Shown here one piece after another: positions 3,347 through 20,713 of a stretch of 22,450 bases of DNA (position 1 is its first letter; each line of letters opens with the position of its first letter). The notes under the pieces were generated by a model. It was not told the DNA's origin, did not search any database, and saw nothing but the letters and a program-made list of their open reading frames with translations. The position numbers were made by a program, and so were the translations under genes. Origin of the DNA: a virus; the IMG/VR virus record IMGVR_UViG_3300023184_003408, positions 1-22,450 of that record, one strand, 5' to 3'.

Positions 3347-4388
3347 CTGGCAAACCCCACTCACTCCTGGAGGAGACCATCGATGGGGTGGCTCAGGATG
3401 GGCACGCATTGGCCAGTACTTAAAGTACTTACCTGAAAACACTGTTGTAGGTACATTGGCCTGGAACAACAAAGATCATTTTGTGGTTATTGATCACCTT
3501 ACAAAAGAAGAGTGCGAAGTAGATACTGTTGTCATGCAACGCTTGATGCACAAAGGTATTAATGAGCACATCCTTCAAGCACAGGCTTATGGCCAAAAGT
3601 TTATTAATGACATTGACGATTGGTATTGGGGGGTGTCTCCATCCAACAAAGCGTTTAGTCACAACCACCCACAAACTAGCCCTAATGAAAACATTAATCA
3701 TTACAGAGGGACTATTGCTAAATCAGACATGGTTTTGTGTAGCACCTCTTACTTGCAGGATCGGTTACGTGATTTAGTCAAAGGAGAAATGGTGTTGTTA
3801 GAAAACACCATTGATTTATCAAGATTTACTCAGCACGTAGATTCTGGTGATGTATCTCCAACTGTTGGTTGGGTAGGAAGTACTGCTCATAGAAGTGGGG
3901 ACATTGAAACCCTTCGTGGTGTACTAGATATTATGGCAAAGCGTGGGGAAGTAAAGCTGTACCACGGTGGAAACCATATGAGTTACCCTACTTTTGCTTC
4001 TTTACTAAACGTTCCAGACGAGTTAGTTACGACTGCGCCGTTGCACCCAATTGAAACGTACGCAACACTCATGTCTATGGACATTGGGATTATCCCTTTG
4101 CGTGATTTTCCTTTTAATCGTTGCAAGTCAGACATTAAAGGAATGGAGTACGCAGCTTCAGGTATTCCTTTTATCGCACAAAACTTAGATGCGTACGTAC
4201 AGCTAAACGAGTCGCTTGGAGTCGGAAGGCTAGCCAAGAAACCTTCTGATTGGATTAAGCATTTAAAACAATTGATTGCTGATCCCTCACTTCGCAGAGA
4301 AGAAGGTGCTCGCAACCGAGAATTAATTTCTGCAAGAGACATACTTTTTGGTGCTCAACGATTTGTTGATGTGGTTACTGGCCTGTAG
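3321..4388 (+). CDS. Glycosyltransferase, GT-B fold, group 1 type (355 aa)
   Basis: ATG 3321 follows GAAGGAC and is chosen over the longer frame from 3273. The N-terminal half has a Gly-rich loop (TPGGDHRWGGSGWARIG, residues 14-31) as in GT-B acceptor domains. The C-terminal half has GWVGS (183-187), DIGIIPL (254-260) and an E-x7-type donor-binding region KGMEYAASGIPFIA (273-286) typical of Glycos_transf_1. It would transfer a sugar from an NDP-sugar; in a phage the acceptor may be modified DNA, a virion protein or a host surface glycan, which cannot be told from sequence. WhiB-2 follows after 9 bases. Another surface-modification type enzyme, the methyltransferase at 21735, is far away in the same orientation. 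Confidence 0.85.
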   Translation: MKIGITSGDWQTPLTPGGDHRWGGSGWARIGQYLKYLPENTVVGTLAWNNKDHFVVIDHLTKEECEVDTVVMQRLMHKGINEHILQAQAYGQKFINDIDDWYWGVSPSNKAFSHNHPQTSPNENINHYRGTIAKSDMVLCSTSYLQDRLRDLVKGEMVLLENTIDLSRFTQHVDSGDVSPTVGWVGSTAHRSGDIETLRGVLDIMAKRGEVKLYHGGNHMSYPTFASLLNVPDELVTTAPLHPIETYATLMSMDIGIIPLRDFPFNRCKSDIKGMEYAASGIPFIAQNLDAYVQLNESLGVGRLAKKPSDWIKHLKQLIADPSLRREEGARNRELISARDILFGAQRFVDVVTGL

Positions 4389-4829: not shown

Positions 4830-5300
4830 TTACATTTCTTTTTGAAGGCTGTCGGGGTTGTACCCAATGTCTTCAAGGAACCTTCGTAGTCTATTGATCT
4901 CTGCCCGCATAGCGTGGTACAAGTGTTGACGCTCAATGTTTTCAATGAGCGACACTTTCTCTAGATGCTCCGGGTTACAGCAAAGAGTGTTGCGACATAA
5001 GTGGTCTAGTGTCTCAACCTTAGTAAGGGAGGCATGCATGTGCTGTTCGTAAGACCATCGGTGAGCTTGGAAAGCTTTGTTACCAACGTACATACGGCCA
5101 TACCCTTTATCAACAGGGCCAGTCCATGTCCAGCAGCCATCATCCTGCTTTTTAATGTGTTTCCAAAACTTGTCTTCTGGAAGCTTTGACTTGTCAATAA
5201 TATGCATACGCCCATCGCGTTGCATTTGTTTGTAATGAGCTGCGCACAATCCTTTGGCTACAGCTTTTTCGTTACATACCGGACCTCTACACATGTACAT
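4830..5300 (-). CDS. HNH endonuclease with N-terminal zinc finger
   Basis: ATG 5300 has AAGGAG six bases upstream; the longer frame from 5375 runs through the hairpin and leader and is less likely. Residues 4-22 form a C-x4-C-x9-C-x2-H zinc finger. The HNH core is at about 57-113: GCWTWTG then HRWSYE, then DHLCRNTLCCNPEHLE with H100 as the general base, N109 and H112 completing the metal site. Cysteines 102, 107 and 108 may bind structural zinc. Free-standing phage genes of this type are often homing endonucleases; DNA nicking during packaging is an alternative. It is the last gene of the leftward block. Confidence 0.9.
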   Translation of the reverse strand: MYMCRGPVCNEKAVAKGLCAAHYKQMQRDGRMHIIDKSKLPEDKFWKHIKKQDDGCWTWTGPVDKGYGRMYVGNKAFQAHRWSYEQHMHASLTKVETLDHLCRNTLCCNPEHLEKVSLIENIERQHLYHAMRAEINRLRRFLEDIGYNPDSLQKEM

Positions 5301-5310
5301 ACTAATCTCC

Positions 5311-11229: not shown

Positions 11230-11459
11230 GATGGGTCAGCCCACTCTCTTTGTAGTTGTTCGGACATTACTGCATCCATTACATGCTCATAATCAACATA
11301 ATAAGTTGATATGAGCCTTTCAATGCGAGCAATCTTTTTACGTAGGCTTCGGTTGCGTAATAACCTCCACCAAGGTGTTTCAATTAACATTGTCTCTACC
11401 AATGAGACCTCTATTCGAGCCTCATTGAGCTTTTTCTCTAGGTACTTATTGTTCAACAT
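11226..11459 (-). CDS. Small basic helical protein (77 aa)
   Basis: It starts within the end of the upstream gene (14-base overlap). The sequence is helical and basic (YLEKKLNEARIEVSLVETM, LLRNRSLRKKIARIERLIS), suggesting a coiled coil or membrane-edge protein. The start at 11459 encodes MLNNKYLEKK with no strong ribosome site. Function unknown. Confidence 0.75.
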   Translation of the reverse strand: MLNNKYLEKKLNEARIEVSLVETMLIETPWWRLLRNRSLRKKIARIERLISTYYVDYEHVMDAVMSEQLQREWADPS

Positions 11460-11745
11460 ATTCCTCCGGTGAATCTATTCCGCATTTGGGGCAGTACGAG
11501 TCATACTCATGGTCACATGGATCGTTGTAAGGTGCTGGTAACTTTGGCATTTGTGCCAACAACTTACTGACTATTCCACGTATATCCAACAAGACATCAG
11601 CAACTTCTGAAACAGGCATCATTTGATGACCTGCATTGTTTTCTAATGACTTATCAACCATTGCCATTACCTCTAAACAAACAGCGATAGTGGCAACCGC
11701 TTCAAACGCTTGAGGTCCTGGGGTTTCTAATGTGTGGACACTCAT
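11446..11745 (-). CDS. Small protein with C-terminal zinc knuckle (99 aa)
   Basis: The first 65 residues are helical and hydrophobic in pattern (AFEAVATIAVCLEVMAMVDK). The C-terminus has CDHEYDSYCPKCG (about residues 77-89), a C/H cluster fitting one zinc. ATG 11745 overlaps the TGA of the 44-residue gene upstream (ATGA). Function unknown. Confidence 0.78.
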   Translation of the reverse strand: MSVHTLETPGPQAFEAVATIAVCLEVMAMVDKSLENNAGHQMMPVSEVADVLLDIRGIVSKLLAQMPKLPAPYNDPCDHEYDSYCPKCGIDSPEEYVEQ

Positions 11746-17144: not shown

Positions 17145-17385
17145 TGCGTGCCTGACGCTGACGGCGAGCCTTGAGGCGCATGTGGGCCGCAAGGCGCTGC
17201 GGATCAACGCTAGGCACAACGGCCTTTGCACGCTTAACCACATCACGGTTGATGATGCGATGAAGCGTATCGTCTTCCGGGGTTAGGCCCCATGTAGGGG
17301 CCCACTTCCAGAAGTTCTGATGTGTTTGGATGTCAGTCTCGTCACCGAGACTTTCGCCCACTAACTTACTAAGCAAAGAATCCAT
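17137..17385 (-). CDS. Uncharacterised basic-tailed protein (82 aa)
   Basis: GAGGGAGA precedes ATG 17385. The first half is acidic and the C-terminus strongly basic (RLAAHMRLKARRQRQARNV), which could contact nucleic acid. The gene lies just downstream of tRNA-Arg in the leftward direction. Function unknown. Confidence 0.75.
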   Translation of the reverse strand: MDSLLSKLVGESLGDETDIQTHQNFWKWAPTWGLTPEDDTLHRIINRDVVKRAKAVVPSVDPQRLAAHMRLKARRQRQARNV

Positions 17386-17424
17386 GATTCTCCCTCTCTG
17401 TTACTATATCCACACGTTGTGGAG

Positions 17425-17498
<74 letters not shown>

Positions 17499-17507
17499 TG
17501 GTATTAC

Positions 17508-17816
17508 TTAGTCACGCTCACGATTTTCAACATGGTTGATAAAACGCTCAACCATGCGCTGCTGGGCAAGCGTAAGACTGCGACAGTCAAACAAACCGGA
17601 TTGGACAACCATGTCATCTTCCAATGCTTTCCAGTAATCACCGTATTGGGTGGTTATTAGGATGTGATTACATTTGGATGCATCACCTTTGTTGAACAAC
17701 TCATCTACCATGGCGTGTGCCATGCTCCGAGCTTCTTCAATTGAATTTAGTTCACACGTTGATTCAACTGAATCTTCGTTATTTTCATAACGAATTTCAA
17801 TTACTGGGTTACTCAT
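17508..17816 (-). CDS. Uncharacterised protein (102 aa)
   Basis: AAGGAGGGG precedes ATG 17816. The product opens with a beta strand (NPVIEIRYEN), has a helix (SIEEARSMAHAMVDELF) and a further alpha/beta part. No family recognised. It is bracketed by tRNA-Arg downstream and the tRNA-like element A with hairpin 8 upstream. Confidence 0.75.
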   Translation of the reverse strand: MSNPVIEIRYENNEDSVESTCELNSIEEARSMAHAMVDELFNKGDASKCNHILITTQYGDYWKALEDDMVVQSGLFDCRSLTLAQQRMVERFINHVENRERD

Positions 17817-17854
17817 TACCCCTCCTTGGGTTGTTCCTCTTATTGAGGCTTTTT

Positions 17855-17887
17855 GGACGCCAGCACGATTTTGGGTCGTGCTTGTCC
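17855..17887 (-). promoter_or_regulatory. GTCCAA-type leader hairpin 8
   Basis: AGCACGA pairs with TCGTGCT over a 7-nt loop, and GGAC with GTCC closes the base around an internal loop. The right arm is AATCGTGCTGGCGTCCAA. It lies four bases after the tRNA-like element A and 36 bases before ATG 17816. Confidence 0.7.
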
Positions 17888-17890
17888 TAG

Positions 17891-18004
17891 TGGGGCTGAG
17901 GGGAATCGAACCCCTGAGACACTTTCGTGGTCCTGTCTCCTGGCTTTTAATTGATTAACAACAAGCCGCGACTCGGTAAGAATGTGCTCTACCATTACAA
18001 CCCC
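17891..18004 (-). ncRNA. tRNA-like element A: tRNA ends without a normal body
   Basis: The ends match a tRNA well: GGGGTTG pairs with CAGCCCC, discriminator A, T-arm AGGGG-TTCGATT-CCCCT. Positions 8-9 are TA and the D-loop-like ATGGTAGAGC follows, but the 5' strand of the D-stem is missing. No 5-bp/7-nt anticodon arm is found. Instead the 114-nt element has other stems, such as GGTAG/TTACC, CGAG/CTTG and GAGACA/TGTCTC with an alternative CAC-GAAA-GTG. It could be a degenerate tRNA, a tRNA with a small insertion, or a tRNA mimic. It is too short and lacks the tag frame of a tmRNA. Confidence 0.6.
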
Positions 18005-18007
18005 CCA

Positions 18008-18178
18008 GTGGCATACTGATAAGCCATTTGCCTTGTGCATGCCAGACAAGGACATAGTACGCAGGTTGCTTATCAATCCTGACACGTCACTAACGGCACG
18101 TGCAGCCGTTTGGCAATGGTGCAAGTATTTCGAGACCCATGCATGAACGTATCCATGCACTTCGTGCTATTGCCAAAG
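18008..18178 (-). ncRNA. Structured RNA segment B between tRNA-like elements
   Basis: No credible frame is present but stems are perfect. TTTGGCAAT (18169-18177) pairs with ATTGCCAAA (18109-18117), enclosing GCAC-GAA-GTGC and GCATGGA-TACG-TTCATGC (a UACG tetraloop). AACGGC/GCCGTT spans 18092-18110. TGATAAGC/GCTTATCA (18017-18024 with 18068-18075) encloses CCTTGT/ACAAGG. The pieces follow each other with almost no spacer and join element C directly. It looks like functional RNA of unknown class. Confidence 0.6.
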
Positions 18179-18272
18179 TGGAGGGAAGAGGAATCGAACC
18201 TCTTAGGAGAGTGCGTCCGGACGTCTTTTGCGCCCCGCAATGACTCTGGCCTGTGCAACCAGCATCCCCTCC
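18179..18272 (-). ncRNA. tRNA-like element C
   Basis: GGAGGGG pairs with TCCCTCC (last pair G.U), discriminator A, T-arm AGAGG-TTCGATT-CCTCT. The 60-nt body has CTGG/CCAG, TTGCG/CGCAA and a possible GGGCG-CAAAAGA-CGTCC arm whose loop lacks U33, so a working anticodon is not evident. At 94 nt it has the length of a type II (Ser/Leu) tRNA, but the D-arm does not fit one. No CCA is encoded. Confidence 0.6.
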
Positions 18273-18275
18273 TTG

Positions 18276-18305
18276 TGTTGATTAGCGAAGAAGCAGTGGT
18301 GACCC
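18276..18305. repeat. Inverted repeat, 3' copy (pairs with 18799-18828)
   Basis: This 30-nt block begins TGTTGATTAG and includes AGAAGCAGTGGTG. It lies 11 bases after the stop of the 149-residue gene and three bases before element C. In the leftward RNA it is complementary to the leader copy at 18799-18828 without mismatch, counting four G.U pairs. Confidence 0.8.
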
Positions 18306-18316
18306 GGGATATGGGT

Positions 18317-18766
18317 TTATTTGGTAAAACTTGCAGAAGTACTGCAAACTTTGTTGAAGTTTGCAACGTCTTCATCTTGGCGCTCAGCATCGGCGTTTAA
18401 CCGGTCTGCAATGTAGTTGGCAACAGTGGTATTCCACCACAATGTTGTAGCTACTTTGCGTTCGGCGTCACGCAATGCGCTCATTTCAGGCGAGAAAGCC
18501 TGAGTGAGGGCATGAAAGCCATTGAGTGTGACGTTTTTCAACGACACAGGCGCCGAGGCAACTGCCTCCTTGGCTCGCTTAAGTTGACGTTGGTTTGCCT
18601 CTTGGCGAGCAACATACTTGTCAAGCAATTCAGCAGTTGCTGCATTGCGCTCAAGCGGGTTATCAATTGTGGACCCATCACAGAGTTCCACAGCCGACTT
18701 AGCCGCTACCTCACGGAGGAGTCCTTTGGCAAACTCAATTGCTTTGTTGACTTTTTCTTTCTTCAT
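18317..18766 (-). CDS. Uncharacterised helical protein bracketed by complementary UTRs (149 aa)
   Basis: ATG 18766 begins MKKEKVNKAIEF; no strong ribosome site is seen (a GAG lies 9 bases upstream), and the longer frame from 18856 crosses the leader repeat. The protein is mostly helical and alanine-rich (ATAELLDKYVARQEANQRQL), with no known domain. Complementary 30-nt sequences flank it at the 5' leader and just after the stop. The absence of a good ribosome site together with the pairing suggests translation is controlled by RNA structure. Confidence 0.75.
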   Translation of the reverse strand: MKKEKVNKAIEFAKGLLREVAAKSAVELCDGSTIDNPLERNAATAELLDKYVARQEANQRQLKRAKEAVASAPVSLKNVTLNGFHALTQAFSPEMSALRDAERKVATTLWWNTTVANYIADRLNADAERQDEDVANFNKVCSTSASFTK

Positions 18767-18798
18767 GATGTACTCGTTTCTGCCCAAAGGGCTATAGT

Positions 18799-18828
18799 GA
18801 GCCACCACTGCTTCTCCACTAATCAACA
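18799..18828. repeat. Inverted repeat, 5' leader copy (pairs with 18276-18305)
   Basis: In the leftward RNA this leader block reads TGTTGATTAGTGGAGAAGC onward to 18799. It starts 33 bases before ATG 18766 and six bases after hairpin 9. Besides the 3' copy, its first part can also pair with 18873-18897 upstream. Confidence 0.8.
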
Positions 18829-18834
18829 ACATTT

Positions 18835-18866
18835 GGACGGCGCCCCAGTTGCCCAAGGCGCCGTCC
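18835..18866 (-). promoter_or_regulatory. GTCCAA-type leader hairpin 9
   Basis: GGACGGCGCC pairs with GGCGCCGTCC (10 perfect pairs), and TTGG/CTGG extends the stem to 14 pairs around a GCAA (GNRA) tetraloop. Three successive extension pairs are G.U in the leftward RNA and would be A.C mismatches in the other strand. The right arm is AACTGGGGCGCCGTCCAA. Confidence 0.78.
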
Positions 18867-18869
18867 TCC

Positions 18870-18979
18870 CGTTTTGATTAGGTGGAGGAGGTGGCAGCGC
18901 CCAAGCCCTCTATTAGCCAGAGGTAATCTCTTGGGAGGGCAGGGCACTGCCGTGTCAGCAAACACGTCGGTCTAACTTA
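18870..18979. other. Structured non-coding stretch
   Basis: No gene is seen. Three hairpins stand in a row: CCCAAG/CTTGGG with inner CCTCT-loop7-AGAGG (18900-18935), GGCAG/CTGCC (18938-18951) and CGTGT/ACACG (18951-18966). A partial third copy of the leader repeat (TGATTAGGTGGAGGAGG) is at 18874-18890. The stretch lies 3' of the 207-residue gene and upstream of hairpin 9; strand of function is unclear. Confidence 0.5.
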
Positions 18980-19011
18980 CGGTTGCACTCCCTAGGCAAC
19001 GCTCTTGTCTG
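18980..19011. repeat. Inverted repeat, 3' copy (pairs with 19807-19839)
   Basis: CGGTTGCACTCC, a CTAGG core and GCTCTTGTCTG are shared with the reverse complement of 19807-19839. The copy lies 31 bases after the stop of the 207-residue gene. Confidence 0.8.
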
Positions 19012-19042
19012 CTACTGGCTCACTCCTATGGGCTATTGCTTA

Positions 19043-19666
19043 TTACTTACGGGACTTGATGACGGCCTGAGCCGACTTGACCAACTTGAGCAAAAGGTCG
19101 GTGTCAACCAACTCGATGCTCTTGAGAGCCAACTCGACTCGGCTCGTTGCGAGGACTGTGGCGTCCTTGGCAACGGTCGTCTTCTTGACCTTGGCAGTCA
19201 TGTCCGCAACAAAGCGACGAGCGTCGCCCGTCGTCTTTGCACGGCCAACCGAGGTGAGCAGTCGGGCAAATGGCGAAGCCTTGACGACCTTGCCCTCTGC
19301 TGTCTCGCTCAGGGTGATGAAGTCGTAGCCCGAAAGAGCATCAACAATTGCGAAGTAATCACCATTGCTGGTGACCTCCACATTGTCACGGCTCAACAAG
19401 CCGACGACCACCATCTTGCCAACGATGTCAGCAGAGACGCCCAAAGACTGAGCAAGTGTCTCCACCTTGTTGACATTCTCGACCTTGACGAACAAGGACA
19501 AGACCTCGGTGCCATACTTGCGGAAGTCGGCAGACATTGCTGCTGCTTTGTCCTGCAAGATAAGGACAGACTTGAACAGAGTGTTGAGGCTCTGACCAAG
19601 GGTAGTGGGTGATGCGGTCTGAGTTTCCTCTACCGCTGGTTGTGAGGCAAGAACGGAAGTGTTCAT
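19043..19666 (-). CDS. Uncharacterised first gene of the leftward block (207 aa)
   Basis: ATG 19666 follows AAAGGGG; the longer frame from 19720 is unlikely. The protein is rich in Ala, Val, Ser, Thr and Lys (VKASPFARLLTSVGRAKTTG, VKKTTVAKDATVLATSRV) and mostly helical; it has no cysteine motif, membrane helix or recognised domain. It uses noticeably more G+C in codons than most neighbours, as do the AAA+ and VWA genes, perhaps for high expression. A DnaA box sits in its leader (19694-19702), and complementary 32/33-nt sequences lie in its leader and after its stop. Confidence 0.8.
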   Translation of the reverse strand: MNTSVLASQPAVEETQTASPTTLGQSLNTLFKSVLILQDKAAAMSADFRKYGTEVLSLFVKVENVNKVETLAQSLGVSADIVGKMVVVGLLSRDNVEVTSNGDYFAIVDALSGYDFITLSETAEGKVVKASPFARLLTSVGRAKTTGDARRFVADMTAKVKKTTVAKDATVLATSRVELALKSIELVDTDLLLKLVKSAQAVIKSRK

Positions 19667-19693
19667 TTGGAGCCCCTTTCTTTGTAGAAAGTG

Positions 19694-19702
19694 TGTGGAT
19701 AA
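19694..19702 (-). promoter_or_regulatory. DnaA box 1
   Basis: TTATCCACA on the leftward strand, an exact DnaA box, lies 28 bases before ATG 19666, so DnaA could also control this gene. Confidence 0.65.
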
Positions 19703-19806
19703 CAACTCACAACAACCCAATTAGGAGTGATAACCAGTAGTTGCATTTCAGCATGGGGTATCTCTCATTTTTTAGCCCTATTTCTAGGACCCAAAATGCA
19801 TTTTTA

Positions 19807-19839
19807 CAGACAAGAGCGCACCCTAGAGGAGTGCAACCG
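19807..19839. repeat. Inverted repeat, 5' leader copy (pairs with 18980-19011)
   Basis: In the leftward RNA this reads CGGTTGCACTCCTCTAGGG and then TGCGCTCTTGTCTG. Twelve outer and 11 inner bases match the other copy exactly, with the CTAGG core between, one bulge and two mismatches. It is 141 bases before ATG 19666. Confidence 0.8.
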
Positions 19840-19929
19840 ATGACCGACTACTGACTAAACACTTACATTCATAGGGCAGGTGGTAGACGCCTAGCCTTGC
19901 AGACCCTATGGGGTGTACTAGAGTGGTGT

Positions 19930-19995
19930 GGTAGCGCCCACACGACTAGTCCGCTGTGTTGCTCGCTCGCTCGTCGTGCTCTGCTTGGTGCTACC
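19930..19995 (+). ncRNA. Possible structured RNA within the origin region
   Basis: GGTAGCGCC (19930-19938) pairs with GGTGCTACC (19987-19995) in nine pairs, one being G.U in the rightward strand. CACGAC (19941-19946) pairs with GTCGTG (19973-19978) inside. The loop includes a short GCTC repeat. No terminator or promoter was found, so expression is unproven. Confidence 0.4.
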
Positions 19996-20093
19996 CACCA
20001 TTAGTGGGTCAGGTCTAGGTGTTCTATGGCAGGACCCAGCCCCCGATGACTACCTAATTGCTGAATAGCCCTATTCCGAACTGGGGGGTTACC

Positions 20094-20151
20094 TGTGGAT
20101 AAGTAGGCACCTGTGGATAACTTTATATAGCCCTATTCTCCCTGTGGATAA
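20094..20151 (-). promoter_or_regulatory. Cluster of three DnaA boxes
   Basis: Exact TTATCCACA boxes (seen as TGTGGATAA) lie at 20094-20102, 20112-20120 and 20143-20151, all in one orientation, with the AT-rich CTTTATATAG between the second and third. This density and orientation are typical of a DnaA-dependent origin. Confidence 0.7.
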
Positions 20152-20180
20152 CTATTCATTCTGCAATGCTCCAACGCGCA

Positions 20181-20218
20181 GGTTGGGCCAACATGTACAA
20201 AATATACATCGCCCAACC
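20181..20218. promoter_or_regulatory. Hairpin or operator upstream of the rightward promoter
   Basis: GGTTGGGC (20181-20188) pairs with GCCCAACC (20211-20218) and ATGTA with TACAT inside. The right arm belongs to the promoter module shared with 20762, so the dyad may be an operator for that promoter. Confidence 0.5.
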
Positions 20219-20239
20219 GTCAAGGGGATAATGTAATAT
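20211..20239 (+). promoter_or_regulatory. Rightward promoter module, leaderless
   Basis: GCCCAACCG and GGATAATGTAATAT are joined by a 6-base segment; the whole 29-base module recurs at 20762-20790 with three differences. TAATAT (20234-20239) is a -10 box placed so that transcription would start at the A of ATG 20246, giving a leaderless mRNA, a common feature of actinobacteria. No clear -35 box is seen. Confidence 0.6.
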
Positions 20240-20245
20240 CTAAGT

Positions 20246-20713
20246 ATGACTCTTAACCCTACCCAGTTCAATAAACAAAAAAGGGTAGTTGATCCTGACG
20301 AGGCACACCCCAATGCTAAAGGGTTTAGCAATACTGGTCACCCTATATATGGTCACAATGAATTTGTAAACTCTAAGTTTGAAAAGGGATGGATTAACAC
20401 AGACGGAGACATCATCCAAGTACCAGAACACGGTGTTTATGAGCCACGATATGCCTATGGGTCTGGGATGGTGAGGTTGCATGTCAACCAAGGGAGATCA
20501 CCATTTTTAGGTTTAGAAATACGTGACAATAGACCCACCCAACAGCAACTAACCACTATCAATGGACTCCACACACAATCACAGTCTAAGAAACTTTTAC
20601 TAGATGTGCTTAAAACAAACACAGATGATTCTGTAGATATGCAAAGTCATGAGCATGACGGTACCTCAAATAGTATTACAAAATTTATTAAGAAATCAAC
20701 ATCACATTTGTAA
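20246..20713 (+). CDS. Uncharacterised protein, leaderless start (155 aa)
   Basis: ATG 20246 has no ribosome site and lies at the expected transcription start of the promoter module. The N-terminal two thirds contain FEKGWINTDGDIIQVPEHGVYEPRYAY and a beta-type segment GMVRLHVNQGRSPFLGLEI, then RPTQQQLTTINGL, a combination that I have an impression of from phage proteins carrying unknown accessory domains. The last 40 residues are polar and low in order. Function unknown. Confidence 0.78.
   Translation: MTLNPTQFNKQKRVVDPDEAHPNAKGFSNTGHPIYGHNEFVNSKFEKGWINTDGDIIQVPEHGVYEPRYAYGSGMVRLHVNQGRSPFLGLEIRDNRPTQQQLTTINGLHTQSQSKKLLLDVLKTNTDDSVDMQSHEHDGTSNSITKFIKKSTSHL

Follow-up and report, generated by a model that had tools for sequence, protein, structure and literature searches.

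Why should the leader and the trailer of one small phage gene be complementary to each other over 30 positions? The question arises from a window of 22,450 nucleotides that comprises the whole of IMG/VR virus record IMGVR_UViG_3300023184_003408 (22,450 bp, linear). Its source is an uncultured phage that encodes a helicase, a queuine tRNA-ribosyltransferase-like protein, a glycosyltransferase and a CobS-like AAA ATPase; DNA searches returned no cultured relative, and only distant CobS-like/AAA ATPase matches were found. The gene in question, ORF B (18317-18766, minus strand), starts with ATG, encodes 149 amino acids and has coding-like codon use, with a codon log-odds of 0.29 in its own frame and negative values in the other five. 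Its leader-side 5' arm (18799-18828, minus strand) is the 30-position complement of its 3' arm (18276-18305, minus strand), and we refer to the pair as panhandle B. The distance from the end of the 5' arm to the ATG is 33 nt, and that from the stop codon to the start of the 3' arm is 12 nt. As an earlier note on this DNA had stated, all 30 positions pair in the leftward RNA, forming 26 Watson-Crick and four G.U pairs without a mismatch; in the rightward RNA, the four differences would read A.C.

This complementarity is beyond chance. The inverted repeat scores 24.0, against a best score of 18.5 in 100 dinucleotide shuffles of the window (span up to 1500), and blastn matches the two arms within the record (E 2.5e-5). 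The duplex between the ORF B leader and trailer reaches -85.1 kcal/mol, compared with -36.8 +/- 7.1 kcal/mol with swapped partners (z -6.8). In the predicted fold of the surrounding 753 nt, the sense RNA forms 30 of 30 panhandle B pairs at a mean pair probability of 0.92, and the antisense RNA of the same 753 nt forms 23 of 30 at 0.72. The 149-residue protein has no significant match in Pfam, PHROGs, phages, viral contigs, genome contigs or related contigs. AlphaFold2, run on the single sequence, predicts an all-helical chain with a pLDDT of 53, a low confidence that is too poor for a fold search. The pattern of the panhandle B arms was found in no other contig, and the search pattern TTTGGSMATAGCACGA was too loose, so that its matches are mostly chance.

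The earlier note had considered gene B on its own. Its panhandle is indeed real, but it is one of a set, and the neighbouring upstream gene is enclosed as well. This gene, ORF A (19043-19666, minus strand, 207 aa), lies within panhandle A, an interrupted helix between a 5' arm at 19807-19848 and a 3' arm at 18966-19011 (both minus strand). Relatives were collected via the ATPase gene, which gave 53 loci, and related phage contigs contain ten further gene-plus-arms units beyond the window's two. Loci L004, L005 and L011 are 97% identical in the ATPase, and their non-coding blocks are 92-99% identical (DNA) to the window. At the place of ORF B, they have a different 76-aa gene with different arms, whose 31 positions comprise 28 Watson-Crick pairs, two G.U pairs and one mismatch. 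L051 and L013 carry three units each, and a scan with the conserved hairpin described below found another in L075. L175, found by a scan with a conserved 5' block, has a 181-aa gene inside nested helices, one of which spans 30 positions (26 Watson-Crick and four G.U). An assembly artefact is unlikely, since one slot B panhandle recurs in L004, L005 and L011, which come from separate metagenomes, and another is common to L013 and L051.

The enclosed proteins differ between slots in how far they are related. Those of slot A (window 19043-19666; L004 5813-6382; L051; L075; L175) have 181-207 residues, diverge fast and are partly interrelated. The relationship is weak, with 27% identity between L075 and L175 (E about 1e-9) and weaker values for other pairs; the window's ORF A has weak similarity to the slot A proteins of L075 and of G001, the contig of L004 (G002 is that of L051). 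In every case, the slot A gene is enclosed by a long, interrupted RNA rod near which a conserved CYUAGAAAU motif occurs. Slot B and C proteins are mostly unrelated. Homologous proteins (51% over 55 aa) do occur in the first unit of L013 (441-728) and the second unit of L051 (7859-8233), in different slots and between different arms, indicating that gene and stem can be re-paired.

How unusual such pairing is was assessed gene by gene. For every predicted gene, the duplex energy of the leader (-120 to -5) with the trailer (stop to +70) was set against that with swapped partners. Among 336 genes from the window, L075 and four related contigs, all genes beyond z -4 belong to the panhandle cluster. 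ORF B scored -2.2 in this run, where its start was wrong; the value of -6.8 given above was obtained with the ATG at 18766. None of 945 genes from 27 distant relatives reached z -4 (two lay between -3 and -3.7), and none of 119 predicted genes in stretches of T4 and of Microbacterium phage Zooman reached z -3.

Because the arms of different units cannot be aligned, we used own-versus-cross pairing in place of alignment-based covariation. In slot A, where the weak relatedness of the proteins makes the test partly an orthologous comparison, the own leader-trailer duplexes of five phages average -128 kcal/mol against -80 kcal/mol when crossed; of the 120 possible assignments, the true one ranks first. 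The eight units of slots B and C average -55 kcal/mol for own and -30 kcal/mol for crossed pairs, the true assignment being the best of all 40,320. Here, all eight trailers pair most strongly with the leader of their own gene, as do six of the eight leaders with their own trailer; the other two leaders come from the first units of L051 and L013, which resemble each other. Judged by these comparisons, both arms turn over while pairing is retained. The earlier note had named arms that diverge with mismatches in relatives as the case that would speak against it; in the relatives examined, complementarity has been kept despite complete divergence of the arms.

A further test separates pairing in RNA from repetition in DNA. 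Inverted repeats that are kept as DNA should gain G.U-type and A.C-type differences equally. Using helices found with a score symmetric between G.U and A.C, we counted 41 G.U against 6 A.C differences between panhandle arms on the sense strand. The imbalance is 40:6 after removal of a near-duplicate (p 3e-7) and 36:6 once the discovery case in the window is set aside (p 3e-6), and G.U exceeds A.C in 12 of 12 units; these counts are to be read with the relatedness of the L013 and L051 units and the choice of helix borders by the finder in mind. Read in the direction of the genes they enclose, which was assigned by the majority of predicted genes, the 115 control inverted repeats in distant phages gave 131 G.U and 132 A.C. 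Predicted pair probability of the panhandles is higher in sense than in antisense RNA in eight of eight cases. The lineages behind all these tests are few (about five), and L013 and L051 are close to each other.

Together, the preference of arms for their own partners, the G.U bias and the control genes that stay short of z -4 point to selection on RNA pairing in the sense transcript, a conclusion that is well supported by sequence comparison. Complementarity is kept while the sequence changes and G.U is tolerated in the sense strand, as would be expected of a selected RNA panhandle, and the earlier note's proposal of selection for pairing between the mRNA ends thus appears to be borne out by wholly diverged yet complementary arms and by G.U counts far above those of A.C. 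The evidence also supports the view that this sense-strand complementarity around genes, kept under turnover, is restricted to a single locus in this group of phages. The locus offers a set of strongly diverged examples in one place, each fitted closely to its own gene, in which the strand test can tell RNA pairing from DNA repeats. To our knowledge, few examples are documented of long 5'-3' mRNA stems that selection maintains around entire genes of bacteria or phages, although our check of the literature on phage mRNA panhandles was thin.

What might the stems do? In slots B and C, the start codon comes 21-36 nt after the end of the 5' arm; the distance from the stop codon to the 3' arm is 4-12 nt in seven of eight units and 32 nt in the remaining one. 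The stem borders are thus placed such that the ribosome site and the ORF fit the loop, with little else there. Stem lengths range from 18 to 43 bp. This geometry argues against sequestration of the start codon, which the earlier note had offered as one function of the panhandle: the start region lies outside the stem in the window and in all other slot B and C cases, and several panhandle genes have good Shine-Dalgarno (SD) sequences. The absence of a good ribosome site at the ORF B ATG, put forward in favour of structural control, also needs qualification. The site is weak but not simply absent, as a GAG lies about 9 nt upstream of the ATG. It falls in a leader module within the loop (18771-18793, minus strand), made up of a small hairpin (AGCCC-UUU-GGGC) and a weak SD (ACGAGUA). 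The module, in which AGAAAYG(G)AGUACNNCAUG follows a small hairpin, is common to unit B of the window, unit B of G001 and unit C of G002, all with unrelated proteins, and one relative's copy has GGAG at the SD position.

The surroundings of gene B, which the earlier note had missed, consist of a chain of structured RNAs. Read leftward, a putative origin/promoter with DnaA boxes (20094-20151) is followed by ORF A, a structured non-coding block between the two panhandles (18835-18960, minus strand; fold z -6.0), ORF B, a tRNA-like RNA (18178-18272, minus strand), a further conserved non-coding stretch, a tmRNA-like RNA (17888-18004, minus strand), a 102-aa gene and tRNA-Arg. Just upstream of panhandle B, the structured block contains the conserved hairpin GGACGGCGCC-UUGGGCAACUGG-GGCGCCGUCC (18835-18866, minus strand), which shows a compensatory C-G to U-A change in L004. 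The stretch 18831-18944 is 92% identical to L004 DNA although both flanking genes differ. Downstream, the tRNA-like RNA starts 3 nt beyond the 3' arm of panhandle B and is 98.9% identical to L004 over 88 nt; ARAGORN makes no call on it. In L051 and L013, likewise, one arm base lies 3 nt before a tRNA and another directly after a tRNA-like element.

The tRNA-like RNA has proper acceptor and T stems, whose sequences change together between the window and L051/L013, and an invariant odd middle, AUYGCGGGGCGCA-ARGACGUCCGGA, in place of an ordinary anticodon arm. The tmRNA-like RNA (117 nt, kept in L004) resembles the tRNA-like domain of tmRNA but lacks the messenger part; it matches the Rfam tmRNA model at E 1.5e-10, below the gathering score. 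At the gathering score, Rfam reports tRNA only; at gathering and loose thresholds, there was no convincing family for the region beyond tRNA and sub-threshold tmRNA/tRNA-Sec. As to the upstream end, window 20053-20171 carries three DnaA boxes (TTATCCACA), 31-bp repeats and a block GGAATAGGGCTATTCNGCARTTRGG kept in six related contigs, and lies near the minimum of cumulative GC skew; it is possible that this is a replication origin at which the structured transcript starts.

On balance, we consider it probable that the locus is a structured-RNA chain with inserted genes, each in the loop of its own stem, and that the stem insulates and serves processing. The leftward transcript would consist of conserved hairpins, tRNA-like and tmRNA-like RNAs and tRNA-Arg in a chain, interspersed with inserted small genes. 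Each of these genes, including its ribosome site, would form the loop of a long stem built from its own flanks. By joining the two borders of the gene, the stem would let the flanking structured RNAs fold as they do without it, and as a double-stranded substrate it may allow RNase III, or a phage equivalent, to free the small mRNA from the RNA chain. We infer these roles by analogy; stems of 18-43 bp fit RNase III processing but do not prove it. In line with inserted genes, the flanking RNA blocks are 92-99% identical between the window and L004 where genes and arms differ. The reading is weakened by cluster genes that have no panhandle (window 17508-17816 and a 71-aa gene of L004) and by L075, where panhandles occur with no tRNA nearby.

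The best parallel for such an arrangement is the intervening sequence (IVS) of 23S rRNA. In Coxiella burnetii, a 28-bp stem holds an ORF in its loop and is cut by RNase III (PMC4990558). As in that IVS, the phage units have their ORF in a loop closed by a long stem of complementary flanks, here by sequence and predicted fold, within a structured-RNA transcript; a weak ribosome site and a small helical protein are further common features, the latter a low-confidence prediction in our case. They differ in that they belong to phages, involve no rRNA, and comprise several unrelated ORFs with stems of their own and non-conserved arms. Rfam finds no rRNA match in the window and Pfam no match of the enclosed ORF to the S23/IVP four-helix family. 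We therefore suggest that the units may work like ORF-bearing 23S IVSs without being members of the group, as they have neither rRNA nor the S23p family. The processing stems of rRNA operons follow the same logic as IVS stems. As there, a unit's two flanks form a long stem beside tRNAs in one transcript; unlike there, the enclosed unit is a protein gene instead of an rRNA, and RNase III cleavage is putative. If the stems do serve processing, these phages would apply rRNA-operon logic to small mRNAs among tRNA-like RNAs.

If the RNA stays whole, the messenger would be built into a large structured RNA. We regard as possible, but doubtful, an extended version of this idea, in which a large phage RNA acts as scaffold and messenger at once, starting near the putative DnaA-box origin and running through the tRNA-like modules; fast-evolving genes would be plugged into its stem tips, the stems being a gene-holding device re-formed with new sequence at each gene replacement. 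GOLLD and ROOL are large phage RNAs near tRNA islands, and GOLLD linkers can hold tRNA inserts (PMC12286853). The likeness lies in phage structured RNAs at tRNA loci with inserts. However, the inserts here are ORFs instead of tRNAs. Neither GOLLD nor ROOL matched positions 17300-20300, even at E up to 5; other large-RNA models of Rfam gave no match either, and Rfam models gave none to a group I or II intron core.

The main rival to the chain of inserted genes is regulation of each gene's own mRNA, in which 5'-3' pairing would set stability or translation, unrelated to the neighbouring RNAs. There is a bacterial precedent in icaR of Staphylococcus aureus, where leader and trailer of a single mRNA pair through a short motif that binds the SD, with cleavage by RNase III (PMC3868564), and selection on sense-strand pairing speaks for this explanation too. 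We nevertheless hold it to be unlikely. In icaR the SD itself is paired, whereas the phage stems are long, keep 21-36 nt away from the start region, do not involve the SD and are found on many genes. Moreover, the panhandles gather at one locus together with structured RNAs, on unrelated genes.

Alternatively, the arms could belong to a gene cassette that is mobile or exchangeable and is bounded by inverted repeats in the DNA, the RNA pairing being incidental. Genes are indeed swapped at fixed positions between unchanged flanks, and an 11-bp palindrome, CTAAYNRTTAG, occurs at stem bases and dispersed in L013 and L051; a lone copy lies at position 307 of L013, where L075 has a gene cassette. 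This origin is nonetheless distinctly improbable as the whole explanation, because it predicts the parity seen in the control (131:132) and the panhandles give 41:6. The cassettes also share no common terminal repeat. A mobile element with terminal inverted repeats was rejected, as arms differ between units and the enclosed proteins match no recombinase family. Cassette exchange may operate alongside an RNA function. The palindrome has 19-20 copies in each of L013 and L051, about one per gene, and is also dispersed in L075 and L175.

It is highly improbable that dispersed palindromes or local hairpins, lying by chance on both sides of a gene, gave rise to the inverted repeats as a by-product. 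In many distant relatives, repeated elements do occur in both orientations, but such palindromes are absent from the arms of the window and L004, an arm folded by itself reaches 0 to -7.5 kcal/mol compared with -32 to -62 kcal/mol for the duplex, complementarity runs past the palindrome into gene-specific sequence, and the own-versus-cross test refutes the idea for slots B and C. The by-product explanation does account for the 38-position inverted repeat around the small ipIII gene of T4 (L180, NC_000866; 10747-10784 / 11459-11496). We rejected this repeat as a second example of a panhandle, as both of its arms are palindromic hairpins that fold locally. The same probably holds for the 470-aa gene shared by L013 and L051, which has a weaker leader-trailer signal in L013 (z about -3). 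In L013, two similar G+C-rich hairpins (3685-3724 and 5181-5220) flank it beside CTAATNATTAG-type sites, and its flanks are probably repeated hairpins and not a panhandle. The window, too, has repeated elements, approximately AATYGTGNCGCNGTCCAA when read leftward, at positions 5308, 9448, 10792, 13249, 16779 and 18833; several lie between leftward genes, and they resemble pieces of the L013 hairpin elements.
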